DNA of 38,157 bases, from positions 1-38,157 of the IMG/VR virus record IMGVR_UViG_3300044712_000270; one strand, given 5' to 3'. Origin of the DNA: a virus. The notes beneath the pieces were generated by a model that was not told the DNA's origin, did not search any database, and saw only the letters and a program-made list of their open reading frames with translations. Shown one piece after another: positions 18,892 to 38,157 of this stretch (position 1 is its first letter; each line of letters opens with the position of its first letter). A program made the position numbers and the translations under genes.

Positions 18892-19497
18892 TCAAGCAGT
18901 GCGTTTCCACATATAGACAACGATGTAGGGCGGCAGGTTGGCATTGGTGCCAGACGAACCAGTTGTGCTGATATTGGTTGTGTGGTCGTGACCAGGGTCG
19001 GTAATCGTAACAATGCCACCTGTAGCAGCATACAATGACGCCAATGTACGTTGTGCAGGACGAGTTTCGCTACCGTTGCCAGAACCAATTGGAGTCGTGG
19101 CAGTGATGCCGGTTTGGTTGCCAAGAGTCGCCGCCGTGTGGCTGTGGCTGACAACAATTGCATCCTTGGAGCCGCCCGTGCCTTCTGCGGTATTGAAAGA
19201 AGGGTCGCCAGCGTTGTAGCTGACCGGCACTCGACCAGCGCCAAACGCAACCCAAGTTCCAAACCCAAGCAATGTTGACGGATTGGTGCTACTGGTCGCG
19301 TTGATGTAGATAGAGCCAACCGGGTACATCAGCTTGCCAATTTCGGCCTGAAGCGCAGATGCTGCACCAGCCGCAGTTGTTGCGCCAGTGCCGCCGTTGG
19401 CAATTGGAACAGCATTCACCAGACCATCGGATGCATCAAGGCGACCAGATGTATCAAGGTTGTTTGCGAGTTGGGAAAGGTTGTATGCTTGTGTCAT
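18892..19497 (-). CDS. Tail collar-type fibre protein (201 aa)
   Basis: It has an N-terminal anchor (MTQAYNLSQLANNLDTSGRLDASDGL, PIANGGTGATTAAGAASALQ), then GKLMYPVGSIYINATSSTNPSTLLGFGTWVAFGAGRVPV and paired HSH and HDH motifs, and ends NLPPYIVVYMWKRTA. This is the phage tail-collar/fibre tip architecture in which HxH motifs bind iron along a trimeric fibre. It follows the J-like gene and probably attaches to the tail tip. Confidence 0.85.
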   Translation of the reverse strand: MTQAYNLSQLANNLDTSGRLDASDGLVNAVPIANGGTGATTAAGAASALQAEIGKLMYPVGSIYINATSSTNPSTLLGFGTWVAFGAGRVPVSYNAGDPSFNTAEGTGGSKDAIVVSHSHTAATLGNQTGITATTPIGSGNGSETRPAQRTLASLYAATGGIVTITDPGHDHTTNISTTGSSGTNANLPPYIVVYMWKRTA

Positions 19498-19506
19498 GGC
19501 TTTTCC

Positions 19507-22791: not shown

Positions 22792-22793
22792 TT

Positions 22794-23240
22794 TTATTCC
22801 TTTACAAACGTCACCGACACAGGCTTGTAGCCGCGCTTCCGGTAGTCAATCAATGGGCCAGTGGACGATGTGGAGGTGGCAATCATTTGGATGTCACCAC
22901 GAGCCAGCATCTCACTGCCAATCCTGTCAAATTCTTTCCACAACCGCCCACCAATTGTGCCATTTCTATATTCTGGCTCAACCCACCAAAGAAGTTCATG
23001 CAACTCCTGAACCTTGGGCGACCAAATGTTGCCTTGTCTGATGGCAATCAATGCGCCATGCATGTGCTTGTCAATCAGGATAAAGCCACGGCCAGCAATG
23101 ATGCCAAACAAAAGTTCTTCCACAAATCGAGGGAAGTGATTTGTTTCTTGGCCCAACGTCTTGATTGGATTTTCAAACGCATACGCTTGAACAATCTCAA
23201 GCAATCTTGGAATGTCGTATCTTGTTGCGAGGCGAATCAA
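22794..23240 (-). CDS. GNAT family acetyltransferase in the tail module
   Basis: The 148-residue protein begins MIRLATRYDIPRLLEIVQAYA and carries WWVEPEYRNGTIGGRLWKEFDRIG, which resembles the acetyl-CoA-binding Q/RxxGxG/A-like motif in degenerate form, then IQMIATSTSSTGPLIDYRKRGYKPVSVTFVKE, the final GNAT strands. It would acetylate a small molecule or protein. Its 4-bp overlap with the upstream tail gene and position before the J-like gene mean late co-expression with virion proteins. The substrate is unknown. Confidence 0.75.
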   Translation of the reverse strand: MIRLATRYDIPRLLEIVQAYAFENPIKTLGQETNHFPRFVEELLFGIIAGRGFILIDKHMHGALIAIRQGNIWSPKVQELHELLWWVEPEYRNGTIGGRLWKEFDRIGSEMLARGDIQMIATSTSSTGPLIDYRKRGYKPVSVTFVKE

Positions 23241-23878
23241 TCGTTTGCTCCTGCCGAAACATCTGAAGGAGCATCAGTCACTGCCTGGCTCCCTTGGGGC
23301 GGCGGGGCACCAAAATCAAAATATGAATTGGCAATCACCGGCACGCGAGACATACTCAAATCACCAGGGTAATAGACCTGCCAAATTTTCGGAGTTGTTC
23401 GCACGCCACCAGTTCGGTTCTCAAGAATTGTGCGGAATGAAGCACAAGACAATCCAACTGTAGCCACGCGAATTCTTGCCTGCTCATTCCAATCTTCACT
23501 GATGGAATAGTTGGAGACAATCCCAGTATATCGTTTAAAAAACTGTTGGGTTGGCGTTGTGATGATCTGGTTGTTGCTATCCAGAAAACCACGCCAAATT
23601 TCAATACGCGATCCTTTGATGTTGGCGGCAAGAACCAAAGAAATGCTTGCACCATCAACACCAGTCAATGACACAGACAGGTCAGTGCTAGTGGCTTTGA
23701 GGTCGCGCTTAACCTCGGAAATGTTGAGCAGACTACCAAGATTGGTGTAATCAACACCATTGACCGTAATAGGGCTTGCAGCGTTGCAAAACGTGTATGT
23801 CGCAGTTGATGTGGTCAACCGGACAAATTCAGCGTGGTTGATTGAATTGCTGCTCAATGCAGCCATTGTCGTACTCAT
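23237..23878 (-). CDS. Distal tail/baseplate protein (213 aa)
   Basis: It starts MSTTMAALSSNSINHAEFVRLTTSTATYTFCNAASPITVNGVDYTNLG at 23878 (ATGA overlap; the extension to 24001 is inside the upstream gene). VKRDLKATSTDLSVSLTGVDG and RIEIWRGFLDSNNQI, SISEDWNEQARIRVATVGLSCASFRTILENRTGGVRT recall DUF2163-type tail proteins. It is likely a minor tail component between tape measure and tip. Confidence 0.65.
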   Translation of the reverse strand: MSTTMAALSSNSINHAEFVRLTTSTATYTFCNAASPITVNGVDYTNLGSLLNISEVKRDLKATSTDLSVSLTGVDGASISLVLAANIKGSRIEIWRGFLDSNNQIITTPTQQFFKRYTGIVSNYSISEDWNEQARIRVATVGLSCASFRTILENRTGGVRTTPKIWQVYYPGDLSMSRVPVIANSYFDFGAPPPQGSQAVTDAPSDVSAGAND

Positions 23879-24513
23879 GTGATGTCCTCTCGAAACACAA
23901 ACGGGCCGTCCCACTGAACAAACGCGCCCCCAGGTGCAGGCACAAGTGTATATGTTGGGCAGGCTTCTGCCAACACATTGAATGTGCAATTCACACCGCA
24001 AGCAACCGCAGTTCCTGCAATCGGCGTGCCAATGATGGGACGATGGATAGACACCGTAGCTGTTGCGCCTGTGTAGGCAACGTTTGCCGTGATTTTGTAG
24101 GTGTAGCCGTTGATGCAGATGAAATCACCAGCCTTGAAAATGTCGCCAGTAGCTGTGGGAATGCCGGTCAACGACAACGTTTGCGAGTTGGCAGCAGGCT
24201 GCGCCGCCAACGTGATGCCGGTCGGCGTAGATGTAGCACCACCTTGGTAAGCAATGAACCAAGACAAATTGCTGTTGTTGAAATTGATGACTTCGGGGTT
24301 TTGCCGGTCAAGGTTGTCAATTGTTTGGATGATGTCGCGGCTGGTTTGGTAGGGCAGGTATGCATGAGGCGTGACGCTGAACACCCACGGCACTGCTGTG
24401 AGGTATTGCGCCACACGGACAAAACCAGAACGGCTCACTTGCTGACCAACAACCCTGCGGTTGTTAACCATCATTGACTGTTGGATGTTGAAGATGGTTT
24501 GAAAAGACATCAC
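23875..24513 (-). CDS. Minor tail protein (212 aa)
   Basis: It begins MMSFQTIFNIQQSMMVNNRRVVGQQVSRSGFVRVAQYLTAVPWVFSVTPHAYLPY and has GDFICINGYTYKITANVAYTG and a C-terminal YTLVPAPGGAFVQWDGPFVFREDIT. I have seen this combination in phage minor tail proteins downstream of tape measure genes. It probably forms part of the distal tail ring. Overlaps of 4 bp on both sides. Confidence 0.7.
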   Translation of the reverse strand: MMSFQTIFNIQQSMMVNNRRVVGQQVSRSGFVRVAQYLTAVPWVFSVTPHAYLPYQTSRDIIQTIDNLDRQNPEVINFNNSNLSWFIAYQGGATSTPTGITLAAQPAANSQTLSLTGIPTATGDIFKAGDFICINGYTYKITANVAYTGATATVSIHRPIIGTPIAGTAVACGVNCTFNVLAEACPTYTLVPAPGGAFVQWDGPFVFREDIT

Positions 24514-26945
24514 GTTCTCCCGTAGGTGGTGGCAAGGATTTTCTCGCCATACTTGTTAGCCGCCCACACAGCGTTCGGGCTACTCATCAGGCGTTCTTCA
24601 AACGACTTGGAATCAATCGCGCTGATGTTGAAATAGTTGTTCACAGTGCTGCTACCAACATTTTCCAGCGCATTGTTGGGAATGATGGTTCCGCTTCCGT
24701 TAGGAACAAACAACTCGGGGCCACGTTCACCAACCATGTAAGGCGTGCCGTCATAGACCGGGCCACCGTTTGCCCTTGGCGCAAGATATTGGTTGAACGA
24801 GGCATCAAGTGCGCCGCCACCACTAGGCGATGGCCCCATACTTGGCCCAGTAAAAAAGTTGAAGGCGTAGCGCATGATCTGCAACGCTTGGGCCTTCATT
24901 TGCATAGCAATCATGTCACGAATAATGCTTTGTGCAAAATCTTTGAACTTGGTTTTGCCACCCTTCACAAAGTTGTCAATGGCGTTGCCCATCGCAGAAT
25001 ACACATTGTTGAACACTTGCTGCGACTTCAATGTTTTGTCTTGCAATTCAATGTTGAAGTTCTCAATAGCCTGCTGTTTGTCCAGTTGTGTTTTTAAGAA
25101 TTCTTCGTCAGCTTGACCAACAATTTCTCGGCGTTTTTGTTCGTACTTCAAAGACACTTCCGCAAGTTTTTGCTCTTTTTCCGTCATGTAAATCAGGCGG
25201 TTTTGCAACTCAACCATCTCTTTTGCATTTTCAAGAGATTTGGTTTCGTTTTGTGCCGCAGTGCGAATTGCTGCTCGTCGGTTATCTTCCGCAACTTCAG
25301 CATTGGAAATTTCTTCTTGCGTTCGGATGTGTTCGTTGTATTCAGCAATACGATTTCGATCACGGATCGCACGCAATTTGTTTTGCGTATCAATCTCAAT
25401 CGCAATGATTTGTTGGTCGGCAATCTTCTTGTTTTGCGCTGCAAACACACCGCGCTCGGCCTCATTCTTTTGGGCCATGTCCCGCAACACATCAGCTTTG
25501 CGCTTTTCTGCATCAAGTTCAATTGCTTGAATTTCACTTGCGCCCTGTTTGGCGGTTTCAATTTTGTTGGCGGCAACCAGTTTGTTGTACTCGTTTTGTA
25601 GCTGCACGCCTTTGGCAAGATCACCAGCAGCAATAAAGTTGTTGATGGCTTCTTTTTGACCGGCAACACTTTTTGCAGTAGCCGAACGATTTTGCAACCG
25701 CTGAATCTCCAAAATGTTTTCTTTGGAGTCTTTAAGGGTCTGCAAGATTTTGCGCCAGCCACGCGCAAAAGCAGTATCCTCGTCAGCAGCACTGCCTTTG
25801 AGCTTTTCTTCAATGTCGGCAATTTGCTTGTCTAGGGACGCAAGAGTTTCGCTTTGAGATGGGCCTGCAATGAGACTCTTGAACTTGTCCCAATAATCCG
25901 ACATTGCCTTGGTGACTTTATTCCAAGCACCTTCAAGCACACCAAGGTCACGCGCTTGCTGTTGCAATTTGGTATTGAGTGCAACAGTGGCAATCTGAAT
26001 AGCATCTTGCGTTTTGCCAGCACGCTCAAGAGCCGCAATTTGCTTGTATTGCTCAAGCGTAAGGAAATTCATTTCCTTGTTGAGCGATGCAGCCCCAGAT
26101 GCTGTGCCATTCAAACCACCAGCCAATTTCTGCGCGGCTGTGGCAGCATCAACGCCAGCAATCTTAGAATAGTTCAAGACGGCTTGCGAAACAGCACTAA
26201 TGGTTTTGTCAGTGTATTGCCCTGTGGCAACCAACGCCATGATGGCATCTTTAGCTTTGCCCGTGCCAACACTCATACGGTCGCCAAGAACCGTAGCCAA
26301 ATCATTGAATTGGTCATACGACAACTTTGTGTAGTTGCCGGTCAAAGCCATTGTGTCTTTGAATTTGTCCAGTTCTTTGTCTGCTTGATATGCGGCAATA
26401 GCCACCGCGCCTAGCGTTGCAGCAAATGCGCCCATAGCCACATTGGCAGGCGTCACAAACGTGCCCAGCATCCTGAACATGTTGCCCAGGCCACCCATTG
26501 AATCTTTCAACTGACCGCCCTGCTGAATCAGCGCAATCATGGGGTTTTGGCCGGAGGCAATCTGCGTAAACAGGTCGGTGGTCTGATAGGTCAGCGCCAT
26601 CTTCTGTTGTTGCGTCATGCCATCGGTGACGTTCTTTTGCGCCTTGGCAACATCGTCATATGCCTTGGCTTGCAGACGCAGAGCATCAATCATGCTCTTG
26701 TCGGCATTCTTGTAGCGACCAGCAGCAATCTGGCGCTCAATCAACTCAACCTTGGTCAGCGTCTTGCCGTAATCAGCCGTCTGATAAACCAAGTCTTGCA
26801 GGTCTTTGGCGGCTCGTTTTGTGGCCGATTGAGCAGACTTAGCCAAGCCATCAAATGCGGCTTCTGCTTCCGAAATTTTGGTTTTCAGTTCCGCACTATC
26901 AACCGCGAGAACAATGCCCAATCGGGCTGCGTTTTGGCTTGCCAT
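24510..26945 (-). CDS. Tail tape measure protein, lambda family (811 aa)
   Basis: The N-terminus MASQNAARLGIVLAVDSAELKTKISEAEAAFDGLAKSAQ is the usual coiled tape-measure start. A hydrophobic segment lies near 165-190 (NVAMGAFAATLGAVAIAAYQ), long helical coils at about 350-660, and the C-terminus has ARANGGPVYDGTPYMVGERGPELFVPNGSGTIIPN, diagnostic of lambda-type tape measures. It sets tail length and is ejected with DNA. At 811 residues a tail of roughly 120 nm is expected by the usual 1.5 angstrom per residue rule. Confidence 0.95.
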   Translation of the reverse strand: MASQNAARLGIVLAVDSAELKTKISEAEAAFDGLAKSAQSATKRAAKDLQDLVYQTADYGKTLTKVELIERQIAAGRYKNADKSMIDALRLQAKAYDDVAKAQKNVTDGMTQQQKMALTYQTTDLFTQIASGQNPMIALIQQGGQLKDSMGGLGNMFRMLGTFVTPANVAMGAFAATLGAVAIAAYQADKELDKFKDTMALTGNYTKLSYDQFNDLATVLGDRMSVGTGKAKDAIMALVATGQYTDKTISAVSQAVLNYSKIAGVDAATAAQKLAGGLNGTASGAASLNKEMNFLTLEQYKQIAALERAGKTQDAIQIATVALNTKLQQQARDLGVLEGAWNKVTKAMSDYWDKFKSLIAGPSQSETLASLDKQIADIEEKLKGSAADEDTAFARGWRKILQTLKDSKENILEIQRLQNRSATAKSVAGQKEAINNFIAAGDLAKGVQLQNEYNKLVAANKIETAKQGASEIQAIELDAEKRKADVLRDMAQKNEAERGVFAAQNKKIADQQIIAIEIDTQNKLRAIRDRNRIAEYNEHIRTQEEISNAEVAEDNRRAAIRTAAQNETKSLENAKEMVELQNRLIYMTEKEQKLAEVSLKYEQKRREIVGQADEEFLKTQLDKQQAIENFNIELQDKTLKSQQVFNNVYSAMGNAIDNFVKGGKTKFKDFAQSIIRDMIAMQMKAQALQIMRYAFNFFTGPSMGPSPSGGGALDASFNQYLAPRANGGPVYDGTPYMVGERGPELFVPNGSGTIIPNNALENVGSSTVNNYFNISAIDSKSFEERLMSSPNAVWAANKYGEKILATTYGRT

Positions 26946-27419
26946 TTACTTTCTCCTGCGCGAGACTTTGCCCCAGAATTCTCGCAGATAATCTTCAAAA
27001 TCAGTCTTAAATAGGCTGATGACCTGATCCTTGTTTTGCTCCAATGCGCGGCGCAAAAATGGCTTGCCAGCAATCTTGGATGTGCCAAACTCCTGCGCCA
27101 ATGACACAGCAGATTTCTTCACGGACACAACCGCAATGGCAACGTCCGTTTGGCTAACAAAGGTGGATTTGTAGTCGCCAGAGGTGGGCCGTCTGGCAAC
27201 AAGTTTTGCAGTGTCCCGCATGTGAAACGGGTTTCTGGCATCGCGGGGTTTATCGCCCACCGGAGCCGTAGCAATGACCTGCTGCAACACAGGCTCCATT
27301 GCGTTCTTTGCCGCCTTTACAAGAACAGCATTTGTGGCCTTCTTGGGGTCAGACAGGTCGGCCAACTCAAGCAACTTTGCTTCAAGTTCCTCCAACCCCT
27401 TGACCTCAATGATGACCAT
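26946..27419 (-). CDS. HK97 gp10-like head-tail/tail component (157 aa)
   Basis: It begins MVIIEVKGLEELEAKLLELADLSDPKKATNAVLVKAAKNAMEPVLQQVIATAPV and continues with the family AQEFGTSKIAGKPFLRRALEQNKDQV near the C-terminus. These are hallmarks of the HK97 gp10/tail-completion family, which normally sits between the connector and tail-tube genes. Here it lies downstream of the chaperones and just before the tape measure, a displaced position. Confidence 0.8.
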   Translation of the reverse strand: MVIIEVKGLEELEAKLLELADLSDPKKATNAVLVKAAKNAMEPVLQQVIATAPVGDKPRDARNPFHMRDTAKLVARRPTSGDYKSTFVSQTDVAIAVVSVKKSAVSLAQEFGTSKIAGKPFLRRALEQNKDQVISLFKTDFEDYLREFWGKVSRRRK

Positions 27420-27420
27420 T

Positions 27421-28232
27421 TCATGCTTTCAAGAAAGCCTCCGATCCTGGGGCCAACATCATGAAAGACAAAAGGCTGTCATTCACTTGTTGTCGCAACT
27501 GTTCCTCAGTAGGCGGCGGCGAGATGTATTCATGCGTTGACGGCAAGACATCCTTCATTGTGAAGGGCCGTGCCGACTTTTGTATTTTGCTGTTCAGGTT
27601 CCCTGTGGTCAAGGAACTCAAAGCCAAGAGGATTGCCTTTGGCCCAATCATGCCGTCAGACAGCATGATCTCAATGTTTCGCATGTCATCAGCCGGGACA
27701 TCATCAGGACACCCGCCATGAGCGTAAATGTACGCCCGAGCCTGCTGGCGAATGTCCTGAATTAGTTTTTTCGGCTTTCCTTGTACCCGGGCTGGATGGC
27801 CTCTGTGATCTTGGAAATCATTTCCAATTGCACAGGCATCGGCCACTCAGCTTCAACTTCTTCATACGTCAAGCCTTCCCAATCCCCATTCACGGGGACG
27901 AGCAGCTTGATGTATTCAACAATTCGTTGTTCCATCGTCAGGACGGTCTTGACCAAATCCCGAGTGGAGCGCCCATCAAAAATGACATCATCCTCCGTGA
28001 TGGTCAACGCATCGGAGTTTTGCATGTCCTTGAAGGGAGCCGTCATCTTCTCAAAGCGGCGTTGCGCTTCGTCTTGGTCGATGTTGGCAATACGCGCCTC
28101 AATCTCATCCAATTCCTTTTGCAAAGGAATCCTGACCTTGAAAGTGAAGCCACCAAGCTCAAACGTCTTGGTGCGGATAGTTTCGGCGGCTTTTACATAT
28201 GCCTCGCCAAAGGCAGAGCCAAATCTTGTCAT
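27421..28232 (-). CDS. Tail assembly chaperone GT-type fusion made by -1 frameshift (about 270 aa)
   Basis: The downstream frame (27421 to about 27775) has no credible start of its own; its open frame extends back over the slippery site. Slipping back one base on A AAA AAC (27771-27765) joins 156 residues of the upstream frame to 114 residues encoded to 27421 (continuing LIQDIRQQARAYIYAHGG). This matches the G/GT organisation of siphovirus tail chaperones between the tail-tube and tape measure genes. The 27846 start of the shadow frame is rejected. GT would bind both tape measure and tube subunit. Confidence 0.8.
27705..27771 (-). promoter_or_regulatory. -1 ribosomal frameshift signal: A AAA AAC plus downstream stem
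   Basis: The heptamer lies at 27771-27765 with zero-frame TAA at 27764-27762. Downstream, CAGGACA (27759-27753) pairs with TGTCCTG (27711-27705), CGCC with GGCG, and an inner GCGTA/TACGC hairpin fits in the loop. Spacing of 5 nt from heptamer to stem is typical for -1 frameshifting. Confidence 0.85.
27762..28232 (-). CDS. Tail assembly chaperone G-type (156 aa)
   Basis: This is the unshifted product, MTRFGSAFGEAYVKAAETIRTKTFELGGFTFKVRIPLQKELDEIEARI, ending PGYKESRKN at TAA 27762. It is acidic and helical, like lambda gpG in place and size (lambda G is 140 residues). It would coat the tape measure protein before tube polymerisation. Its last two sense codons AAA AAC plus the preceding A are the frameshift heptamer. 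Confidence 0.75.
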   Translation of the reverse strand: MTRFGSAFGEAYVKAAETIRTKTFELGGFTFKVRIPLQKELDEIEARIANIDQDEAQRRFEKMTAPFKDMQNSDALTITEDDVIFDGRSTRDLVKTVLTMEQRIVEYIKLLVPVNGDWEGLTYEEVEAEWPMPVQLEMISKITEAIQPGYKESRKN

Positions 28233-28450
28233 TTCTTGATGATCCTGTTGTAAATTGTCTGATTGAGTTCAATGGCGTATTCCACCACTTGCTCAGGCGT
28301 CATTTTATCCGCATGGCTGCGGGCGATGTCATGAGCCAAAACAATCGCTGTGATGCGTTGCTGTGTGAAGCCAAACCAATTCTTTGAAGAATCGGCCTGG
28401 CCCACCAGAAATGCAAGAAGGTCTGTGCTGTCTTTTACTGTTACTGTCAT
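28229..28450 (-). CDS. Hypothetical 73-residue protein in the tail module
   Basis: MTVTVKDSTDLLAFLVGQADSSKNWFGFTQQRITAIVLAHDIARSHADKMTPEQVVEYAIELNQTIYNRII is mainly helical. I recognise no family; small helical genes between tail tube and chaperones are common. It overlaps the chaperone start by 4 bp. Confidence 0.6.
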   Translation of the reverse strand: MTVTVKDSTDLLAFLVGQADSSKNWFGFTQQRITAIVLAHDIARSHADKMTPEQVVEYAIELNQTIYNRIIKK

Positions 28451-28451
28451 T

Positions 28452-28634
28452 TCATTCCTCTGTTAGAGGTGCCGGGTTGTACTTTCGCAAGAGTTGCAAG
28501 GCAACATACTCAGCGGTGTCAGGCGTAGCCTTAAACGCCGCAAGTTCAGCAGCATCCACGGGGAGACTGCGGGCAACAACTTCAATGTCGCCCATAGTCT
28601 CCACGATCAACTTGATAGCGTCCTTGGCTTTCAT
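28452..28634 (-). CDS. Hypothetical 60-residue protein in the tail module
   Basis: MKAKDAIKLIVETMGDIEVVARSLPVDAAELAAFKATPDTAEYVALQLLRKYNPAPLTEE is an Ala-rich helical protein. Its ATG overlaps the stop of the second tail-tube gene (TAATG), so translation is coupled. Function unknown. Confidence 0.65.
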   Translation of the reverse strand: MKAKDAIKLIVETMGDIEVVARSLPVDAAELAAFKATPDTAEYVALQLLRKYNPAPLTEE

Positions 28635-29152
28635 TAGTTGTTCGACCAGCCGTACTGGTTGCCTCGGGGATGGATTGTAAACACAGCTTTGGCTTCCGCA
28701 CCGGGCTGGGCATCAATTTGGAAGTTGCCAACGCGACCGTTGAACGCATACGCAACCGTGTTGGTGCCATCAACAGCGGCAACCACGAACGTGCGGTCAA
28801 CCGTGCCGTTGTAGGCGTCAGCGCGGATTTGCAGCAGCGCGGCATCGCTGGGGTTCCAGGCGGCGGTGATGGTCAGGCTGGTCGGCGCAGATTGAGTCGG
28901 GATTTTGTCCGACTGGCGCGAACCGGCAACAGCATAGTTCGCCATTGCGTCATCCATACCGAAAGCCGGGATGGCTTCAGCAGGGATTTGCACGCCAGCA
29001 GTGCCTGTGCCGTTGGCGGCGGTGCCAACAATGGTCTGCACTTGCGATGCCCACACCGACAGGTTTGCTGTCGTGAATGCGCTCGGCGTAGCAGCAGACT
29101 GCATCCACATGCTTGCGGAAAAACCAGGAAGGACTTTGCTCGGGATCGACAT
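28634..29152 (-). CDS. Major tail protein paralogue 2 (172 aa)
   Basis: It begins MSIPSKVLPGFSASMWMQ and shares with the adjacent gene long nearly identical blocks: IPAFGMDDAMANYAVAGSRQ, SDKIPTQSAPTSLTITAAW, NPSD, RADAYNGTVDRT, AFNGRVGNFQID, QPGAEAKAVFTIHPRGNQYG. The pair is a tandem duplication of a tail-tube subunit. The N-terminal third (about 18-55) differs in sequence and is slightly longer. It may build part of the tube or a decoration. Confidence 0.75.
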   Translation of the reverse strand: MSIPSKVLPGFSASMWMQSAATPSAFTTANLSVWASQVQTIVGTAANGTGTAGVQIPAEAIPAFGMDDAMANYAVAGSRQSDKIPTQSAPTSLTITAAWNPSDAALLQIRADAYNGTVDRTFVVAAVDGTNTVAYAFNGRVGNFQIDAQPGAEAKAVFTIHPRGNQYGWSNN

Positions 29153-29161
29153 GATTGCTCC

Positions 29162-29656
29162 TTAAGCGTTGTTCGACCAACCGTACTGATTGCCACGGGG
29201 GTGAATGGTAAACACCGCCTTGGCTTCAGCACCAGGTTGCGAGTCAATCTGGAAGTTGCCCACACGGCCATTGAAGGCGTAGTAAACAATGTTCGTGCCA
29301 TCGGTGGCCGAAATCACATAGGTGCGATCCACAGTGCCATTGTAGGCATCAGCACGCACCAGCAGCAGATTGGTATCGCTGGGATTCCAAGCAGCCGTGA
29401 TTGTCAGGCTGGTAGGAGCCGATTGCGTAGGAATCTTGTCCGATTGACGCGAACCAGCCACGGCATAGTTGGCCATCGCATCGTCCATGCCAAACGCAGG
29501 AATCGCCTCAACAGGCAGTTGGTTGGCCGACACGGCAATGGGCGACACGCTGGCAACCAAGGCCAGTTGAGCAGTTGTCAAAGGGGTCGGGGTAGCGCCA
29601 GGTTGGCAGTAGAGTGCAGCACTGAAACCAGGCAAGACTTTGTTAGGGAGAGCCAT
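29162..29656 (-). CDS. Major tail protein paralogue 1 (164 aa)
   Basis: It begins MALPNKVLPGFSAALYCQPG and is closely related to the next gene downstream. The conserved core from IPAFGMDDAMANYAVAGSRQ to the C-terminus is the shared part. Location between tail terminator and chaperones fits the tail-tube protein, which stacks as hexamers around the tape measure. AAGGAAATGCAAA precedes ATG 29656. Family not recognised by name; tube role inferred from order. Confidence 0.75.
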   Translation of the reverse strand: MALPNKVLPGFSAALYCQPGATPTPLTTAQLALVASVSPIAVSANQLPVEAIPAFGMDDAMANYAVAGSRQSDKIPTQSAPTSLTITAAWNPSDTNLLLVRADAYNGTVDRTYVISATDGTNIVYYAFNGRVGNFQIDSQPGAEAKAVFTIHPRGNQYGWSNNA

Positions 29657-29695
29657 TTTGCATTTCCTTCAAGAAGTTGAACAAATGTCTTGTCT

Positions 29696-30115
29696 TTACG
29701 CTGAAATGTCCAAGGTGCAATCCAAATAGATTTGCGCCATATTTTCTTCGTTGTTGTAGCTATTGTAAAGCCACATCACATCAGCTTTTGTGAGATAAAA
29801 CCCATCAGCCAAGGAACCAAATTGCCCGCTGTAACCGTGTAGCTGATCCAAAATTGTATTGGCGATTGTGAAACCATCTTCAATCTTTTGCGTAAAGATA
29901 GAAATCTGGCAAACAGGTCGGTCAATACCTTTTACGGTTTTGTTTGTGCCCGTGTAAACCGGCTGGTGGACGTTCCGCAACTGCCACACCACAAACTTCG
30001 GCTCATTGGCAAAGTTGCGGTTGAACGAGGCGTAAACAGGCACAGGATTAACAATTTGGCTCAGTTGATACTGAATCGCCTTGCCATACTGTAAAACGTC
30101 ATTTTGCTGTGCCAT
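29696..30115 (-). CDS. Tail terminator/completion protein (139 aa)
   Basis: MAQQNDVLQYGKAIQYQLSQIVNPVPVYASFNRNFANEPKFVVWQLRNVHQPVYTG, then VCQISIFTQKIEDGFTIANTILDQLHGYSGQFG, reads as the alpha/beta tail-terminator fold (gpU/gp17-like). It lies between head closure and tail-tube genes, the expected slot. The assignment is by position and fold pattern. Confidence 0.65.
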   Translation of the reverse strand: MAQQNDVLQYGKAIQYQLSQIVNPVPVYASFNRNFANEPKFVVWQLRNVHQPVYTGTNKTVKGIDRPVCQISIFTQKIEDGFTIANTILDQLHGYSGQFGSLADGFYLTKADVMWLYNSYNNEENMAQIYLDCTLDISA

Positions 30116-30460
30116 TTAAACCGCCGTAACAGGGTCAGAACGGTAACACATGAATGTCACGCGCATCCGGTCATTGGACTCGCGCACATCCGTGATTCGC
30201 CAAGATGCATTACGCCAGGTGATTGAATACCATTGCTGGTGGTCAACAATCTGCTTCATGTTCGGCGTGTAGTTCAAGGTGAAATTCACCAAGTCTTGAT
30301 ACAGACGATATTTGTCCGCGATCTTCACATTGTTTGCAACGTCACCCACCAACGCACGAGTGCCAAACCACTTGGTTTCAGTGGTTTCACCTTCGCCAAA
30401 ACTTGACTTGGAGAAAGTCAGGTTGTTGACGGTAATGTTCTCGTAGCGGGTAATTGCCAT
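30116..30460 (-). CDS. Head closure / head-tail joining protein (114 aa)
   Basis: The product contains MAITRYENITVNNLTFSKSSFGEGETTETKWFGTRALVGDVANN and ends QWYSITWRNASWRITDVRESNDRMRVTFMCYRSD. The final strands match the head-tail joining pattern of SPP1 gp16/HK97-like stoppers (RYRITWRG...ITDVRE). It is coupled to the connector upstream and abuts the tail terminator. Confidence 0.75.
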   Translation of the reverse strand: MAITRYENITVNNLTFSKSSFGEGETTETKWFGTRALVGDVANNVKIADKYRLYQDLVNFTLNYTPNMKQIVDHQQWYSITWRNASWRITDVRESNDRMRVTFMCYRSDPVTAV

Positions 30461-31131
30461 TACATCACCAGCGGTTTGTATTTGCGGAGCAATGTGGTCA
30501 CACCGAACGGAATATCCTTGAGTTTCGTTTCGGTCGCATTGGCCCGGTTGTTGTACAGATGAGTGTACAGGAGCAGGGCCGCTTGCTTGATGACCGGATA
30601 CGTCTGCAAAGGATTGGGCGCAGTGGAATATTCCACCACAATCGGAGCCGTCATCGCGCTATTGATGTCAGTCGGGATGCTGTTGACCACAACCTTGTTG
30701 CCAGACGCATCGTAGTAATACTGCGTCGAGGAAATTGTGGTCAGCACCGGGGGCGATGCGTTGCTCCAAAACTTCACCGAATTGATGGTGACGCCAGATT
30801 GGTTGGGGTATTGATTCTGGCTGACCTCGGGCAAGTCAAGGCTGACAGGGCTTGCCACGAGGCTTTCCGCACCATACCAAACTCGGTATGTGATGGGGAA
30901 GATGGACATCCCAATGTAGTCCTCGATTGCCATGCGGACGGCAAGTTCAAGGCTCTTGAGATATTCATCTTGGCTCTCGTCCTCATACAAGTTGATGTGC
31001 TGGGTAATCTCATTCAACGTCAGCCAAGGCGTGACCACATCACGGTCGATTTCCTCAACCTTGACGTAATTGAATGGATTGCGCGTTTGCGCCCCAAACG
31101 GGAAGCCAGCAATCAAATCTGTAGATGACAT
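30460..31131 (-). CDS. Head-tail connector (gp6-like adaptor, 223 aa)
   Basis: Helices LTLNEITQHINLYEDESQDEYLKSLELAVRMAIEDYIGMSI are characteristic of the gp6/gp15 connector family. A beta insertion (about 85-180) and a C-terminal helix (YPVIKQAALLLYTHLYNNRANAT) follow. It should ring the portal and recruit the head-closure protein. It follows the second capsid gene after 10 bp. Confidence 0.8.
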   Translation of the reverse strand: MSSTDLIAGFPFGAQTRNPFNYVKVEEIDRDVVTPWLTLNEITQHINLYEDESQDEYLKSLELAVRMAIEDYIGMSIFPITYRVWYGAESLVASPVSLDLPEVSQNQYPNQSGVTINSVKFWSNASPPVLTTISSTQYYYDASGNKVVVNSIPTDINSAMTAPIVVEYSTAPNPLQTYPVIKQAALLLYTHLYNNRANATETKLKDIPFGVTTLLRKYKPLVM

Positions 31132-31141
31132 TACCTACCCC

Positions 31142-32155
31142 TTACGCAGACAGACGGGCACCAGCAAACGGGTCGCGCACAGTGCTAACCACACGCTTTT
31201 CCGCATAGATGGTCAAGAAGCCAGGAGCAGTCTGTTCAAAGACTTGGATGCTCATTTCTTCATTGTCACCGATTGTCAGGAATCGCGGCCAGTTGGCAAG
31301 GTAAATCGGGAAAGACGAGGACAGGTAGGGGTTCGGCACCACAGGGAAGCCAAACATACGAGCCACAGCGCCGCCATCTTCGTCACCCACCTCGAGGAAC
31401 AGCGGCAGACCTTGCGTGTCCTTCAGTTGGCGCAACGATTGGATCATTGCAGGCGACACATGCCAAGCATTACCCGGCAGGCTCCAGTATTGGCTGGGGA
31501 AAGCATTGACCACGTTCACGATGTCGTTGTACGCGATTGTGCCGCCAGCCTGGGCCACAGTTGCCAGTGTATGAATACCGCTTGTGATGGCTGTGCCAGA
31601 GGTGCCATAAGCCGCCGTAGAGGCGCTGGCGTACATGGCAAGGCCACGCAAGCCAGAAGTCGCGCCAGTGGCCGTTGTGGTCGAGCCAGACTGGTCATTG
31701 TTGATTGCCATCGAGGCAGCTTCCTGTTGGCCGAATTCCAGCGCTAGGTCATCAACAATCGCGGCTTGCAGGCCGTTCACATCCGACATCACAGCAGTGC
31801 GAATGGGCAACTGAGCCGTAATTGCACGCACAGGCAATTGCCAAATGCTTGTGTCGGTGTTCGGGGTGCCGGTGTTGTTTTGCACCGGATAGCCCCAAGG
31901 ATTTGTTTGGTAGGTTGCGTTACCAGTCTTGGCAACGAACTGCGCGTCACTGCCAGCAACGGGGATGATTCGTGCGGCTTGACGGAAAGGGTTGGCGTAA
32001 CGCAGTGTGGCGAACGCATCATCAAACAGAACGCGACCACCCACACCAGAGCCGGAGCCAGTGATGGCAGATGCTTCCTTCAGGTCGATGGTGACTTTGC
32101 TGCCCTGTTCATAGGCTTCTTTGATGCCAGCAAGGATTTTTTCGGTAATGGTCAT
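31142..32155 (-). CDS. Second HK97-fold capsid protein (337 aa)
   Basis: It is clearly paralogous to the capsid gene just upstream: WGYPVQNN, NTDTSIWQLPVR, LPIRTAVMSDVNGLQAAIVDDLA, NNDQSG, PSQYWSLPGNAWHVSP, MFGFPVVPNPYL, YLANWPRFLTIG, FEQTAPGFLTIYAEKRVVSTVRDPFAG. It lacks the roughly 100-residue N-terminal delta/scaffold domain, keeping only a short helical start (MTITEKILAGIKEAYEQG). Start has AGGAACCGCC upstream. It may be a minor capsomer, vertex or form-switching subunit. Confidence 0.85.
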   Translation of the reverse strand: MTITEKILAGIKEAYEQGSKVTIDLKEASAITGSGSGVGGRVLFDDAFATLRYANPFRQAARIIPVAGSDAQFVAKTGNATYQTNPWGYPVQNNTGTPNTDTSIWQLPVRAITAQLPIRTAVMSDVNGLQAAIVDDLALEFGQQEAASMAINNDQSGSTTTATGATSGLRGLAMYASASTAAYGTSGTAITSGIHTLATVAQAGGTIAYNDIVNVVNAFPSQYWSLPGNAWHVSPAMIQSLRQLKDTQGLPLFLEVGDEDGGAVARMFGFPVVPNPYLSSSFPIYLANWPRFLTIGDNEEMSIQVFEQTAPGFLTIYAEKRVVSTVRDPFAGARLSA

Positions 32156-32179
32156 GGCGGTTCCTAAAACAGTGAATCC

Positions 32180-32212
32180 AAAAAAGGGGAGAGGTTTCCC
32201 CCTCCCCCTTCT
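32180..32212 (-). terminator. Terminator between the two capsid genes
   Basis: On the minus strand AAGGGGG...AAACC...CCCCTT folds as an imperfect GC stem (about 9-10 bp, one mismatch, two G-U pairs) followed by TTTTTT (32185-32180). Its place, between capsid 1 and capsid 2, would make it attenuate downstream transcription and set their ratio. Confidence 0.65.
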
Positions 32213-32218
32213 TTACGC

Positions 32219-33568
32219 TCAGGTGGCGGTGCCAGTCGAGCGATAACGGACGCCTGCGAACGGATCGCGCACCGAGGTGCCCAGACGCTTTTCACCGTAG
32301 AAGGTGATGAAGCCAGGGGCGGTCTGGTCGTAGCGACGAACCAGCATGTTCAGGCGATCAATGATCGTGTAGAACCGCGAGAAGTCGCCAAAGTACGCCG
32401 GGTACAGGCTGTTGGTGCCAGCGGAACCAGTGGTGGTCTGGCTGGGGGTGTCGAGGTAGCTGTTAACCACCACCGGGAAGCCCAGCACAGTGCCCACGAT
32501 ACCGTTAGTTTGCAGCGGGTTCATACGCTCAAACACCGGGGTGCCGTTGTTGTCGGTCAGACCACGGATTTGAGCCATGAACACGTTGTTCACCATCAGC
32601 ACAGCCGAATCAGTCCAATACTGCTGCGGCAGGCTGTAGATGAAGTTCACCAAGTCCTTGTAGGTGACGTTGGCGGCACCGACAGTGTTGGCGTTGGTGG
32701 TCAACTGGTCATAGGTAGCCAGGCTGTGCAGACCGCTGGAAGAACCAGTGCCCGACGAGCCGAAAGCAGCCGTGCTGACCTTGCCGCCAGTGTAGGTGGC
32801 GTTGGCGCCGCCGTACTGATCCAGGCCGCGCAGGCCATCAGCACCACCAGTAGCCGTGTCCGAACCCGTGCCAGTCTGGTCGTTGTTCTGGATCATCGAC
32901 AGGGCTTCCTTCTGGGCGAATTCGGCCAGCATGTCATCAACCACGTTGGCTTCCAGGCCGTCAATGTCATCCAGGGCCGCAGTGCGGATCGGGAACTGAA
33001 CGTTGATGTCCTTCAGCACGATTTGCCAAATGCTCGTGTTTTCAGTCGTGGCCGAACCGTTGTTCTGGATGCTGTAGCCCCACTGAGCACCAGCGTCACC
33101 AGTCTTGACACGGAACTGATACGACGAACCATCCGTAGCCACAGTGCGGGCAACGCCGCGCAGCGGGTTGTACAGACGCAGAGCAACAAACACCGGATCG
33201 TAAGCAGTACGACCGCCCTTGCCGTCACCACCAGCCGTCAGGGCCGAGGCTTCCTTCAGGTAGTCTTGCATCTGGGCTTCGTCAGCAAAAATCTTCAGTT
33301 CTTTTTCAAACGAGGACTTGCCCGAGGCGATGCCCTTCAGTTGCTCACGAACGTTGCGGTTAACGTCTTGGCGAACCGACTTGGCTTTCTCTTTGTGGAT
33401 GGCGGGGGCTTGCACCGAGGCCACTTTGGCTTCCAGAGCAGCAACCTTTTCCACAAACTCAGCCTTCACGGCTTCGATAGCGGCGGGGATTTTGGCTTCA
33501 ACAGCCGCGACAGCCTCGGCCTGCTTGGCTTCGATGGCGTCGAGTTTTTCAATAATGACTTGCGACAT
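32219..33568 (-). CDS. Major capsid protein, HK97 fold with delta domain (449 aa)
   Basis: Residues about 1-60 are a coiled coil (KLDAIEAKQAEAVAAVEAKIPAAIEAVKAEFVEKVAALEAK), the scaffold-like delta domain removed by the protease. From about 115 the HK97 core follows: NPLRGVARTV, NTSIWQIVLKDINVQFPIRTAALDDIDGLEANVVDDML, NNDQTG, LPQQYWTDSAVLMVNN, GTVLGFPVVVNSYLD, YDQTAPGFITFYGEKRLGTSVRDPFAG. Start at 33568 has GAAAGG upstream. Confidence 0.92.
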   Translation of the reverse strand: MSQVIIEKLDAIEAKQAEAVAAVEAKIPAAIEAVKAEFVEKVAALEAKVASVQAPAIHKEKAKSVRQDVNRNVREQLKGIASGKSSFEKELKIFADEAQMQDYLKEASALTAGGDGKGGRTAYDPVFVALRLYNPLRGVARTVATDGSSYQFRVKTGDAGAQWGYSIQNNGSATTENTSIWQIVLKDINVQFPIRTAALDDIDGLEANVVDDMLAEFAQKEALSMIQNNDQTGTGSDTATGGADGLRGLDQYGGANATYTGGKVSTAAFGSSGTGSSSGLHSLATYDQLTTNANTVGAANVTYKDLVNFIYSLPQQYWTDSAVLMVNNVFMAQIRGLTDNNGTPVFERMNPLQTNGIVGTVLGFPVVVNSYLDTPSQTTTGSAGTNSLYPAYFGDFSRFYTIIDRLNMLVRRYDQTAPGFITFYGEKRLGTSVRDPFAGVRYRSTGTAT

Positions 33569-33570
33569 GA

Positions 33571-34371
33571 TTAACCTTTCAATCGGTTTTCAAGGAGTTT
33601 AAGGAGTTCACGCTGCTCAATGGCCGCGAGAATTTCCGCTTCGGTTGCCTCCGCATCAGAATCACTCTGGTTCGGCGCAGTTTCAACAGGCACTTCAACA
33701 GCATCACGCTGTTCCAGCACCTGCTTGAACACGGATGCGGCGGCAACCGCTTCCGACTTGGACAGCCCTGCATCCCGCAGTGCTTCTTCCAAAACTTTGA
33801 GGTCGGCGCTGCCGTCTTGCCGGAAATACTCCAGCTTTTTGACTTGCGCCTTGGGGTTGTTGGGGTACATCACCACGCTGGTTTCCCGCAGGCCACCTTT
33901 GGTGATTTGGAAATAGCCTTCATCCCAAACATCAGCAGAGCCAGCCGGGAAAACTTCGCCATCTTCCTTGACCCACTGATATTCGTCAGCATAAGCGCCA
34001 ACGCTCACGCCGCCAAACATGTTGGGCGACTCGCACATGACTTGATAGAGGTCAGAACCAGCAGTGGTGTTGAGGAACAAACGGCCCTTGGCATTCATGC
34101 CTTCATCGTCCATCTCAACTTCGTACCACTCGCCAACAGGCATCGTGTCAGCGTTGTGATTCAGGAACATCGGCAGGGGTCGGCCAGATGCGGCAAACTC
34201 CTTGGCCCACTCCATGAAACCTTCAGGCTTGTAGAAGAACTTGCGGCCATCTGCGCCTTCACGCGCCCCCCAAGTGGTGATGCGGGCCTCAATCTTGCCT
34301 GTCGGTTCGCCGTTTGCGGCCTTTTCGGACAGGTTGAGTTTGGCTTCGCAGATCAGTTGAACTTGCTTCAT
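33571..34371 (-). CDS. Prohead maturation protease, S78 family (266 aa)
   Basis: It starts MKQVQLICEAKLNLSEKAANGEP at 34371. The catalytic His is in MFLNHNADTMPVGEW (H72) and the Ser in GGVSVGAYADEYQW (S123), the order of HK97-type S78 proteases. A C-terminal acidic coiled tail (about 215-262) may act in scaffolding. It cleaves the capsid delta domain, lying between portal and capsid genes. The frame extends to 34389 (MQLGQS), but GGGGC before ATG 34371 favours the shorter start. Confidence 0.9.
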   Translation of the reverse strand: MKQVQLICEAKLNLSEKAANGEPTGKIEARITTWGAREGADGRKFFYKPEGFMEWAKEFAASGRPLPMFLNHNADTMPVGEWYEVEMDDEGMNAKGRLFLNTTAGSDLYQVMCESPNMFGGVSVGAYADEYQWVKEDGEVFPAGSADVWDEGYFQITKGGLRETSVVMYPNNPKAQVKKLEYFRQDGSADLKVLEEALRDAGLSKSEAVAAASVFKQVLEQRDAVEVPVETAPNQSDSDAEATEAEILAAIEQRELLKLLENRLKG

Positions 34372-34510
34372 TGATTGCCCCAATTGCAATTGACAAATCG
34401 TTGTCTTGTATTTTATGGCTATTCTGTCTTTGTACGTGTTTTACGTAATCAGGTTGTAAAACCTGTTTGGCTAATGCTACCAGATATTTTGAATCGGTAC
34501 GCATAATTTT
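34372..34510. other. Portal-protease gap with small inverted repeats
   Basis: This 139-bp gap holds CAGGTT-TTAC-AACCTG and TACGT-AAAAC-ACGTA hairpins on the minus strand and a CAATTGCAATTG tandem. A 71-residue frame from 34504 overlaps the protease start by 83 bp in another frame and looks weak. I see no terminator (no T-run) and no strong promoter; an RNA processing or translational signal is possible. Confidence 0.4.
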
Positions 34511-35911
34511 TCAAGTGGTGCCCATGTTCATCTTGCGGGTCTGATTTCCACCACCGCCACCAGTGTCCTGCGGAGAAGTGCCGGGAATCGGCTCGGCGTC
34601 TTGACCGTCATCGCGCAATTCATCGCCGCCTTCCATGGGGTCAAGCCCCATATACGCACGGGCTTCGTTGGGAGTGAGAATACCACCTTTGACGCCAGCA
34701 GTCGCAAAATTCATTTGATCCAGCGGCGCACCCTTGAGGAAATCCTTGGTGTCAAACTCAATGGACAGGCTAGGGAACCCGACAAAAAGATGGCTGTTCA
34801 GCTTTTCTTGGACGTTCACAATAGTCGGGTAAATTGCCGACTTGTAAAACTCATCCATCGCGGTTTGCGTGTTGTTGAACTTGCCGTCATGAATGCCAAT
34901 CATCTGCGGCGGCACACCAAACAGGCCACAAATGCGGCGCATGGTTTGCAGCTTGAGTTCTCGCGTGTCGTTGTCCTGCAACTTCAGCATTTCCAGCGGC
35001 GTGTACTTCATACCCTGGTCAAGCAGCATCCCTTGGCCCGGTTTGGACGGGTCGGATTGCTTGGAACCAACCATGTTGCTCCAAGCCTCTTTGAGTCGGG
35101 CAGCAATCTCTTTGTATTTGCTGTCAGGGATGACTTGCTCAGTCATGAACACGCCAGAAGGCTTCGCGCCGTTCTGCATGACGTAGTTGGCGTACAGGTC
35201 AATGTCTTGGTCAAGACCAACCAGTTCGGCCATCAGCACGCCTTTGTTGAAGCCAGCAGAACCCTGCCAGGCCATCTCTTTGCAGTGCATCACCTGATGG
35301 GCGGCAAGAGGCTCGTCACGGTTGAAGCCATAGGACGGGGTTGACAGGCGGTAGGACGGATACCGGGTCGGCGTGATCGTCACAGCAATCAGCGTCGAGT
35401 CCAGAATGTACATTTCCAGCGGCGTTTCTGTCGTGGACTTTTGATCCTTCCTCCACCAAAGGGCAAAGGACTCACCTGCCAGTTCGTACCACATCAACCA
35501 CTGATACCAGAACTCGTACTTGGACTGGAAATTGTTGGGGTTGTTCAGCAGACGGGCAACCTGCTTGGCCTTGGCCTTGTCGCGGGCACCAACCGACTTG
35601 TCTTTGACCGCATCAATCTTTTTGCCGTCCTCATCTTCGTAAAAGACCTTGATGGGCAATTGAGCGAGGGCACGGGCTTTGACAGCAACGCACGACATAA
35701 CCGTGCTGTTGCGTGCCAGCATGGACATGTCCACAGGCCGACCAGCATTGGTTGAACTGGCGGTTGTGACGTACAGAATCTGCGTATTGACGTTGGGCTG
35801 CTGATTTGTGCCTTGGTAAACAATGTTGTTGCCCAAAGCAGTCTGGCCGAACATGCTGTTCGACTCATTCTGAGCCACCGATTTACGCTTGAAAATGTCC
35901 AAAATCGCCAT
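34511..35911 (-). CDS. Portal protein, HK97 family (466 aa)
   Basis: It starts MAILDIFKRKSVAQNESNSMFG at 35911 with AGGAG 10 bp upstream; the frame to 35932 is rejected. Family markers are VMSCVAVKARALAQLPIKVF, LNNPNNFQSKYEFWYQWLMWYELAGESFALWW, KYTPLEMLKLQDNDTRELKLQTMRRICGLFGVPPQMIG and NTQTAMDEFYKSAIYPTIVNVQEKLN. It forms the dodecameric DNA gate at the head vertex. It lies 24 bp downstream of the large terminase, with the protease next after a 139-bp gap. Confidence 0.95.
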   Translation of the reverse strand: MAILDIFKRKSVAQNESNSMFGQTALGNNIVYQGTNQQPNVNTQILYVTTASSTNAGRPVDMSMLARNSTVMSCVAVKARALAQLPIKVFYEDEDGKKIDAVKDKSVGARDKAKAKQVARLLNNPNNFQSKYEFWYQWLMWYELAGESFALWWRKDQKSTTETPLEMYILDSTLIAVTITPTRYPSYRLSTPSYGFNRDEPLAAHQVMHCKEMAWQGSAGFNKGVLMAELVGLDQDIDLYANYVMQNGAKPSGVFMTEQVIPDSKYKEIAARLKEAWSNMVGSKQSDPSKPGQGMLLDQGMKYTPLEMLKLQDNDTRELKLQTMRRICGLFGVPPQMIGIHDGKFNNTQTAMDEFYKSAIYPTIVNVQEKLNSHLFVGFPSLSIEFDTKDFLKGAPLDQMNFATAGVKGGILTPNEARAYMGLDPMEGGDELRDDGQDAEPIPGTSPQDTGGGGGNQTRKMNMGTT

Positions 35912-35935
35912 GATTTCGCTCCTATTCTTCACATA

Positions 35936-37615
35936 TTACCACTCAATTGAACGAAAACCAAACGATTCCGACACGAACACATTGTCCAAATGACCATGAA
36001 TTGCCATGATTAGGGCAATGATGCCGTCCACCTTGGCTGATGGGTCTGCCTCATTCTTCCTGACCTTGACGTTTCCATTGACATCGGTGTAAACCTCGCA
36101 GTTGCCCAGTTGCCAACCAACAAAAGGATTGCCATCGTGGTGAATGGCTTTCTTCATAATCAACTGCTCGGTGGCCTTGGACGGGTTTGACAGCACCGCC
36201 ATCCCCTGCCCCACCTTCACCACCGGCAAGCCTTCAGCATACAGGTTTGCCACCAATGCAGCAGCGTTGTACGGGTCATAGTTGACCGCCTTGACCTCGT
36301 GTTCAGTGCATTGCTGCTTGATGTACGACTCAATCTGGTTAAGGTCGGTCACATTACCAGGCGTCAGGTGCAAAATGCCAGAACGCACCGCTTCGGCAAA
36401 GATTGGCTTGTAGTGGTTCGGGATCAAGTCCATTGATTCTTCTGGCAGGAAGAACTTGAACACCGCTTGGAAATCTTCTTCGGTATAGCGATGCAAGGTA
36501 CACACCGCATTCAAGTCTCGGGTATGTGCCAAGTCAAATGCAAGGAACGTGCTTTCAGGCTTTTGATCGGGCTTTTGCCTGATGGACTCATCCCAATATC
36601 GGCGGTCAATCCAAGCTGAATTGGCGCTGACATAGATGTTCAGTTGCTTGCACAAGAATTCATTCAAACTCGCCGGTTTGGCTGACGCTTCCTCGGCCAT
36701 ATGTTGAATATGCTCTGTCGTAACAGAGATGCCCAACATAGGATTAGCTTTTCCCCAAACAGCAGGATCAGCCCAATGGTCACCGGGATCAACGCTATAT
36801 AAAAGACCAAACCAGCGGAAATTGTCAGCAGCCGCGCCCCGTAGTAATGAACGGAAGTGCGATAAGTCCTCATAGAACTTGGTTTCCTTTGTAAAGCTGG
36901 CAGTGGTCAGGTACATTCGCAACGGGTTCTTGCGGGCACCCATACCTGAGTGCAACACCTCGATGTTGGTGCGCTCTGTCACCTGGGCGGCTTCATCCAC
37001 CATCGCACAGGACGGGTTCTTGCCGTCACCAGTCTTGCGGTTTTCCCGCGACAGCGCCCGGTATGTGGATGTGCTGTCGCCAGCTTTCTTCAGTTCACTG
37101 CGGTAAACAAGGAACTTGGCTTGCAATTCAGGAACCATGCCCTCAACGATGGCCTTGGACGAATCAAAGCAAATTGACGCCTGCTCACGGTTTGTCGCCA
37201 GGGTGAATACTTCCGCGCCAGCATCGCCAAACTGCAACTCGTACAGGGAAATGATGGACGCAATGGTGGTCTTGCCCGACTTGCGGGGCACAAACAGGAT
37301 GACATCGGTTGTCCAACGAATGCTTGGGTCACGTTTGTCACGGAACCCATAGATGCCAGCCAAAAACAAGATTTGGAAGGCTTGCAGTTCAATCCGCTTG
37401 CCAGCGTCCGGCCCTTTGACATGCCGACAGAAACTGACGAACTTCAGGACATGCTCAACCTTGGCCGGGACAAATTCGTAGGGCGCGTCTTTACGCTCCA
37501 CCATGTCCAGAAACCGCTGGCACGCTAGGCGAACATCCTCACATGCAAGAATGTCGCCACGTACAACCCCAATGGCGTACTCAAACGCCTTGTTAAGCGT
37601 TGGCGAATAGCTCAT
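35936..37615 (-). CDS. Terminase large subunit, HK97-like (559 aa)
   Basis: It starts MSYSPTLNKAFEYAIGVVRGDILACEDVRLAC at 37615 and overlaps the small terminase by 23 bp. The ATPase has Walker A PRKSGKTT (110-117), Walker B CAMVDEAAQ (about 203-211) and motif III (MYLTTAS). The nuclease has FDLAHTRDL, NYDPYNAA and a final KVDGIIALIMA with metal-binding acids. It translocates and cuts DNA at the portal. Confidence 0.95.
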   Translation of the reverse strand: MSYSPTLNKAFEYAIGVVRGDILACEDVRLACQRFLDMVERKDAPYEFVPAKVEHVLKFVSFCRHVKGPDAGKRIELQAFQILFLAGIYGFRDKRDPSIRWTTDVILFVPRKSGKTTIASIISLYELQFGDAGAEVFTLATNREQASICFDSSKAIVEGMVPELQAKFLVYRSELKKAGDSTSTYRALSRENRKTGDGKNPSCAMVDEAAQVTERTNIEVLHSGMGARKNPLRMYLTTASFTKETKFYEDLSHFRSLLRGAAADNFRWFGLLYSVDPGDHWADPAVWGKANPMLGISVTTEHIQHMAEEASAKPASLNEFLCKQLNIYVSANSAWIDRRYWDESIRQKPDQKPESTFLAFDLAHTRDLNAVCTLHRYTEEDFQAVFKFFLPEESMDLIPNHYKPIFAEAVRSGILHLTPGNVTDLNQIESYIKQQCTEHEVKAVNYDPYNAAALVANLYAEGLPVVKVGQGMAVLSNPSKATEQLIMKKAIHHDGNPFVGWQLGNCEVYTDVNGNVKVRKNEADPSAKVDGIIALIMAIHGHLDNVFVSESFGFRSIEW

Positions 37616-37964
37616 CAATCTCACTTGCCTTTGCTTTCAGTTTCGGACGCCCACGAGCAACCAGGCCAAGTTCACCAAGAATCTTGGTGGCCTTGTCGAT
37701 CATCTCCGTCCGAATCTTGTACCAAGGGCCAGTGGCTTCACCGCTGTTGTAGTTCGCGGTATGTCCCATCTCACGAATGTTGATTTCTGCCGTCAGCAAA
37801 GAATCAACCGTCAAAGTCAGCATCCCAATCAGCATCTCATCGGACGCCGTGAGCGCACCTGTGCTTGCCTCGACCTCTGCACGCACGGCAGTTTCAAAGG
37901 CATTCCGATCCCATGTGTTCGGGTCGTTCAGGTATTTCAGGATATGGCGGGCTTTCTTTGACAT
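37593..37964 (-). CDS. Terminase small subunit, P27-like (123 aa)
   Basis: It starts MSKKARHILKYLNDPNTWDR at 37964 with AGGAGAA upstream; the extension to 38015 runs through the tRNA and is rejected. The helical core (AEINIREMGHTANYNSGEATGPWYKIRTEMIDKATKILGELGLVARGRPKLK) matches P27-type small terminases that recognise packaging DNA. It lies 21 nt downstream of the tRNA and overlaps the large subunit. Confidence 0.85.
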   Translation of the reverse strand: MSKKARHILKYLNDPNTWDRNAFETAVRAEVEASTGALTASDEMLIGMLTLTVDSLLTAEINIREMGHTANYNSGEATGPWYKIRTEMIDKATKILGELGLVARGRPKLKAKASEIDELFANA

Positions 37965-37985
37965 AGGTTCTCCTATCTTGTGAAC

Positions 37986-38060
37986 TGGTGCTGACAGAAG
38001 GAATCGAACCATCAACCTACCGCTTACAAGGCGGTTGCTCTACCGTTGAGCCATGCCAGC
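37986..38060 (-). tRNA. tRNA-Thr (anticodon TGT)
   Basis: The 75-nt molecule begins GCTGGCATGGCTC and ends in encoded ACCA. Acceptor GCTGGCA pairs with TGTCAGC (one G-U), the D stem is GCTC/GAGC, the anticodon stem ACCGC/GCGGT encloses C-T-TGT-A-A, giving UGU (Thr). The T stem has one U-U mismatch. It precedes terS in the late operon, perhaps supplementing the ACA codon. Confidence 0.9.
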
Positions 38061-38079
38061 ATTGAGCAAAGAATAGCAC

Positions 38080-38119
38080 AAAAAGGGAGGGCGGGAAGGT
38101 GACCATCCCTCTCCCCCCG
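38080..38119 (-). terminator. Putative terminator upstream of tRNA-Thr/terS
   Basis: On the minus strand GGGAG (38115-38111) pairs with CTCCC (38089-38085), with an inner GGGA/TCCC, followed by TTTTT (38084-38080). It would stop leftward transcripts entering from beyond the window, for example from the HNH gene if the map is circular. The stem is bulged, so strength is uncertain. I see no gene in 38061-38157. Confidence 0.5.
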
Positions 38120-38157
38120 TTCACCCCCTCTGTCGTTAGGACACGGGGGAAATTGAC

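Follow-up and report, generated by a model that had tools for sequence, protein, structure and literature searches.

Tandem HK97-fold capsid paralogues in a group of small aquatic siphoviruses, and a possible division between hexamers and vertices

The window analysed here is the whole 38,157-nucleotide stretch of the virus record IMGVR_UViG_3300044712_000270. Its head genes include two capsid genes in tandem, referred to below as A and B, and the features that concern us are the following.

35936..37624, minus strand: terminase large subunit (PF20441 and PF03354)
34511..35932, minus strand: portal protein (PF04860, E 7e-64; the start codon is the ORF tool's call, unrefined)
33571..34389, minus strand: prohead protease (Peptidase_S78), adjoining A and predicted to cut off the A delta coil
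32219..33568, minus strand: capsid protein A (HK97-fold, 449 aa), whose N-terminal region of about 105 residues holds a delta-like coil; likely the hexamer-forming major capsid protein
32180..32213, minus strand: terminator-like hairpin with a 15-bp stem, a 4-nt loop and a T-run ending the 3' arm (AAGAAGGGGGAGGGGGAAACCTCTCCCCTTTTTT)
32161..32166, minus strand: TAGGAA, a probable ribosome-binding site lying 5 nt ahead of the ATG of B
31142..32155, minus strand: capsid protein B, 337 aa, an HK97-fold paralogue without a delta domain; likely a vertex (pentamer) protein
30460..31131, minus strand: head-tail connector (gp6-like / Ad1), the next gene past B

The locus is a standard lambda-like siphovirus head module with one extra capsid gene: terminase, portal and S78 prohead protease lie upstream of the pair, the gp6-like connector lies downstream, and 63 nt separate A from B. 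A and B both belong to the HK97-fold major capsid family (PF05065 / PHROG 10). Against PF05065 (Phage_capsid, curated cut-off 24.2) A scores 104.9 bits (E 7e-30) and B 87 bits (E 2e-24), both match PHROG 10 'major head protein', and the two align with each other at 41% identity over 368 columns (E 1e-78), which together rule out chance similarity or mis-called open reading frames. An earlier note, made from the DNA letters, had described two HK97-fold capsid paralogues in tandem with an N-terminal coil in the upstream copy only, and both observations hold: the two frames are intact on the minus strand and 41% identical, and a long helix is modelled at the N terminus of A and none in B. The blocks it took to be shared need one correction, for TAPGFxTxYxEKR is found in both proteins, whereas SxVRDPFAG fits B only (B reads STVRDPFAG and A reads TSVRDPFAG, and the block common to both is VRDPFAG). 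AlphaFold2 models of moderate confidence (pLDDT 67 for A and 75 for B) arrange the elements of both proteins in the HK97 order, though as monomer models they do not distinguish a pentamer from a hexamer subunit. The best solved-structure match for both, by sequence profile and by fold, is the RcGTA capsid Rcc01687 (Foldseek E 1e-18 for the A model and 1e-16 for the B model), which differs in that a single capsid protein builds hexamers and pentamers alike.

Several features set B apart from A. First, the long helix spans residues 2-51 of the A model, and in sequences where the shared E-A-S-A motif can be located it is preceded by about 105 residues in A and about 26 in B. A therefore fits the HK97-like delta-domain type of capsid protein, which uses no scaffold protein apart from itself and is defined by an N-terminal coil and an adjacent prohead protease, and B, which has no coil, has the form used to recognise vertex proteins, namely a major capsid paralogue with a short propeptide or none. 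Second, B consistently lacks the C-terminal tail and three loops of A (254-260, 289-296 and 377-385), and it carries a short insert of its own in the E-loop region (B 84-86). Third, 72 conserved positions are shared by the two proteins and 19 more are conserved in each yet differ between them. The missing loops and the differently conserved positions suggest that A and B have different neighbours, a pattern that fits specialised neighbours better than mere loss of function.

Both genes are kept together across a large set of relatives. Searches seeded with B, with A and with the A protein of Methylophilaceae phage P19250A gathered more than 200 loci, in 199 of which A and B are adjacent with A always first, a count that includes some contigs twice; the remaining loci with a match are contig ends, plus one probable chimera (L218). 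No A without B was found among the informative relatives, including those from the A-seeded searches, which were able to reveal such loci, and a plasmid collection gave no match. There are 144 distinct pairs with both proteins complete; in these A measures 439-477 aa and B 330-360 aa, and every A but no B has the long N-terminal part. Degraded copies in close relatives, named in the earlier note as the genomic side of what would speak against its proposal, were not found: the pair is intact, with single split frames in B of one locus (L070) and A of another (L104), and median dN/dS over 60 close pairs is 0.11 for A and 0.12 for B. Both genes are under strong purifying selection, and this together with their co-occurrence rules out a degenerating duplicate. 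Mean pairwise identity is 0.78 in the A core, 0.67 in the B core and 0.61 in the N-terminal part of A, which is the least conserved. The A-B phage group is widespread and common in aquatic metagenomes, and it includes an isolate: P19250A (KX815270) carries both A and B as orthologues (59% identity each) in the same order; it differs in that its B is annotated as a hypothetical protein only, and the available portions of the literature on P19250A and its kin do not mention the pair. P19250A is reported to share a genus-level cluster with OM43 phage Venkman, which we considered as a relative and set aside: its annotation shows a single capsid protein, with scaffolding as a protein of its own, and it matches neither A nor B. 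L218, a contig of a metagenome-assembled genome, was likewise rejected as a single-capsid relative, because its A-type C-terminus gives way to one unplaced gene and then to genes of a bacterial chromosome. Another fragment from that MAG (L225) is itself a patchwork, and both look like assembly chimeras. Longer contigs of the group mostly end near 36-41 kb; one contig with the pair reaches 76 kb (IMGVR_UViG_3300022748_000017, our L087 and L198) and may be a larger phage, a concatemer or an assembly artefact.

The pair appears to be old. All B sequences form one clade (bootstrap 100) on a stem of length 0.94, which makes a single ancient duplication that preceded the group's radiation the likely origin; within one genome A and B are 37-46% identical over the trimmed core. 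Four single-capsid outgroups (Bcep176, VW-6S, Cd and RHph_X2_25) are 19-24% identical to A and B and join the tree inside A with weak support, so that the exact branching around the duplication is uncertain and, of the tree, only the monophyly of B is firm. All four are slightly nearer A than B, and B is for this reason probably the derived, faster-evolving copy.

The gap between the genes carries a conserved element of its own. In the window the gap folds more stably than dinucleotide shuffles (z -3.35), and its hairpin ranks first by number of G-C pairs among terminator-like sites in the roughly 20 kb from 18300 to 38157. Most relatives have a gap of 38-68 nt and an AGGA-type core upstream of B. 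Of 99 gaps (58 distinct sequences), 97 have a stem of 6 bp or more, with a mean z of -3.6 against mononucleotide shuffles; under a strict definition, stem and T-run occur together in 76 of 104 gaps. The hairpins are G+C-rich, usually with the T-run after or at the 3' end, and their stem arms vary while pairing is kept (GGAG..CTCC, GATG..CATC, GCAG..CTGC), as read off hairpins picked by folding rather than from a formal covariation test. Far longer gaps of 342-642 nt, possibly with small inserted genes, occur in three loci (L015, L017 and L123). A hairpin also follows the capsid gene in the single-capsid outgroups, and for this reason the element may be older than B and would mark lower expression of the following gene rather than a vertex protein.

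Codon usage points in the same direction. The effective number of codons (Nc), an indirect proxy for expression, is 37.9 for A, 40.3 for the tail tube gene, 43.1 for B and 49.7 for the protease, and in 95% of loci it is lower in A than in B (p 4e-18, over loci that are phylogenetically non-independent). The conserved hairpin and the weaker codon bias of B together suggest that B is probably made in intermediate amounts, below those of A, a signal equally expected of a portal-vertex protein or of a minor subunit in a mixed shell.

The earlier note had offered a mixed shell, a vertex protein and a size switch, and of these the vertex protein is favoured by the obligate co-occurrence of the two genes, the lower inferred expression of B, its lack of a propeptide and the gene layout of phages T4 and Sour; the other two are less so. 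We put the probability at roughly 0.6 that A forms the hexamers and supplies the scaffold while B, without a propeptide, occupies the 11 non-portal vertices. An ancient duplication would have split the two jobs of the ancestral capsid protein. A would have retained the delta coil as an internal scaffold, would be cleaved by the adjacent S78 protease and would form hexamers; B, having lost the coil, would join the prohead through contact with A hexamers and form the pentamers. The hairpin past A would terminate most transcripts, or stabilise the A message, and B and the genes downstream would be expressed at a lower level through read-through. We infer the presence of B in the virion, and its seat at the vertices, by analogy with known systems.

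Solved structures offer two such precedents. In T4, gp23 forms hexamers and gp24 the vertices, and gp24 loses a propeptide of 10 residues compared with 65 in gp23 (PMC9958956). The likeness extends to an HK97-fold pair downstream of the prohead protease, a much shorter propeptide in the vertex protein, and a strong hairpin with a U-run directly after the hexamer gene, between genes 23 and 24 (L228, 7012-7080). T4 differs in that gp23 and gp24 are only about 20% identical, a separate scaffold protein is used, a homing endonuclease gene lies between the capsid genes and the phage is a large prolate myovirus. Profile searches of solved-structure sequences with A and B matched no T4 gp23 or gp24 chain, and with B only the RcGTA and EcCI2 capsids at E up to 0.1; B as a vertex protein would be gp24-like in function, and its profile search lends no support to descent from gp24. 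In the second precedent, the SaPIbov5 protein Ccm is found in pentamers only, with a delta domain of 87 residues compared with 128 in the phi12 capsid protein (PMC8569155), which forms the hexamers. Ccm is thus also an HK97-fold homologue with the shorter delta domain, though it is satellite-encoded and only 24% identical to the phi12 protein; its 87-residue delta domain shows that vertex paralogues can have one, and B, with no propeptide at all, is unlike both T4 gp24 and Ccm. A third parallel comes from Gordonia cluster DR phages, which by annotation have hexamer and pentamer major capsid proteins (PMC9413003). In Gordonia phage Sour (MH153810) a 'major capsid hexamer protein' of 564 aa is followed by a 'major capsid pentamer protein' of 268 aa, and the 96-nt gap between their genes holds a strong hairpin and U-run (L227, 13186-13281). 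The Sour proteins belong to other families (PHROG 777 and 779), and BLASTP found no similarity between the two. The earlier remark that tandem capsid paralogues are uncommon is accordingly fair for small siphophages, but T4-type phages have the gp23/gp24 pair, and hexamer and pentamer capsid proteins are annotated in Gordonia cluster DR (PMC9958956, PMC9413003).

The same observations can be read in other ways. B could be a minor hexamer subunit in a mixed lattice, at fixed quasi-equivalent or random sites, tuning curvature or stability. With 41-42% identity and 72 shared conserved positions, co-assembly within a capsomer is conceivable, and an HK97-fold two-component encapsulin assembles into mixed shells whose composition varies and whose tiling is irregular (PMC12407261). 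We nevertheless consider this unlikely, given the three missing loops, the 19 differently conserved positions and the separation of the two proteins into hexamers and pentamers in both T4 and SaPIbov5/phi12. A true two-component lattice, with B at fixed positions in some hexamers rather than at vertices, seems more doubtful, and we found no description of one in a tailed phage in the literature consulted. There is still less to recommend B as a non-shell structural protein with a capsid fold, such as a portal-vertex collar or ring or a surface protein: although its gene sits after the hairpin, between the capsid and connector genes, in the usual position for head completion, its model retains the HK97 elements, E-loop strands and spine helix among them, Foldseek matches that model to shell subunits of capsids, and its codon bias, stronger than that of the protease, suggests more than a few copies.

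We give little credence to a size or shape switch, in which A alone would build one shell and A with B another, the A:B ratio setting head size. The model for such a switch is Ccm, which in pentamers turns phi12 heads from prolate to isometric (PMC8569155), but Ccm is made by a satellite that profits from a smaller head, whereas A and B are always together in one genome, and the longer contigs of the group, which mostly end near 36-41 kb, make no second head size evident. Least probable is a redundant backup capsid protein under weak selection, for although point mutations in gp23 bypass T4 gp24 (PMC9958956), so that vertex paralogues can become dispensable, B is present in all informative relatives, at the low dN/dS given above and with no degraded copies beyond the two split frames.

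If B is indeed a vertex protein, the division of labour between hexamers and pentamers exists in small lambda-like aquatic siphoviruses. What would be new is the combination of a recognisable pair, a vertex candidate without any propeptide and a small siphovirus. The 41-42% identity of A and B would then make them a good system for asking which changes adapt a capsid protein to the vertices, and whether a subunit placed there can do without its own scaffold. That three phage groups have a terminator-like hairpin between the capsid gene and the vertex gene suggests a simple genetic means of setting the ratio of subunits.

Other features of the window lie outside the head module. A second tandem pair (29162-29656 and 28634-29152, minus strand) consists of major tail protein paralogues that are 74% identical, with a nearly identical core. 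Two copies, 65-84% identical to each other, are found in 31 distinct related loci and one copy was detected in most others; as two copies occur in only some loci, the tail-protein duplication is either more recent than that of the capsid genes or more variable. A tRNA-Thr (TGT) lies at the window edge (37986-38060, minus strand). In the tail-fibre region, a 915-aa protein with collagen-like repeats (15580-18327, minus strand) is followed by one that resembles glycosyltransferases and matches TPR weakly (14191-15249).
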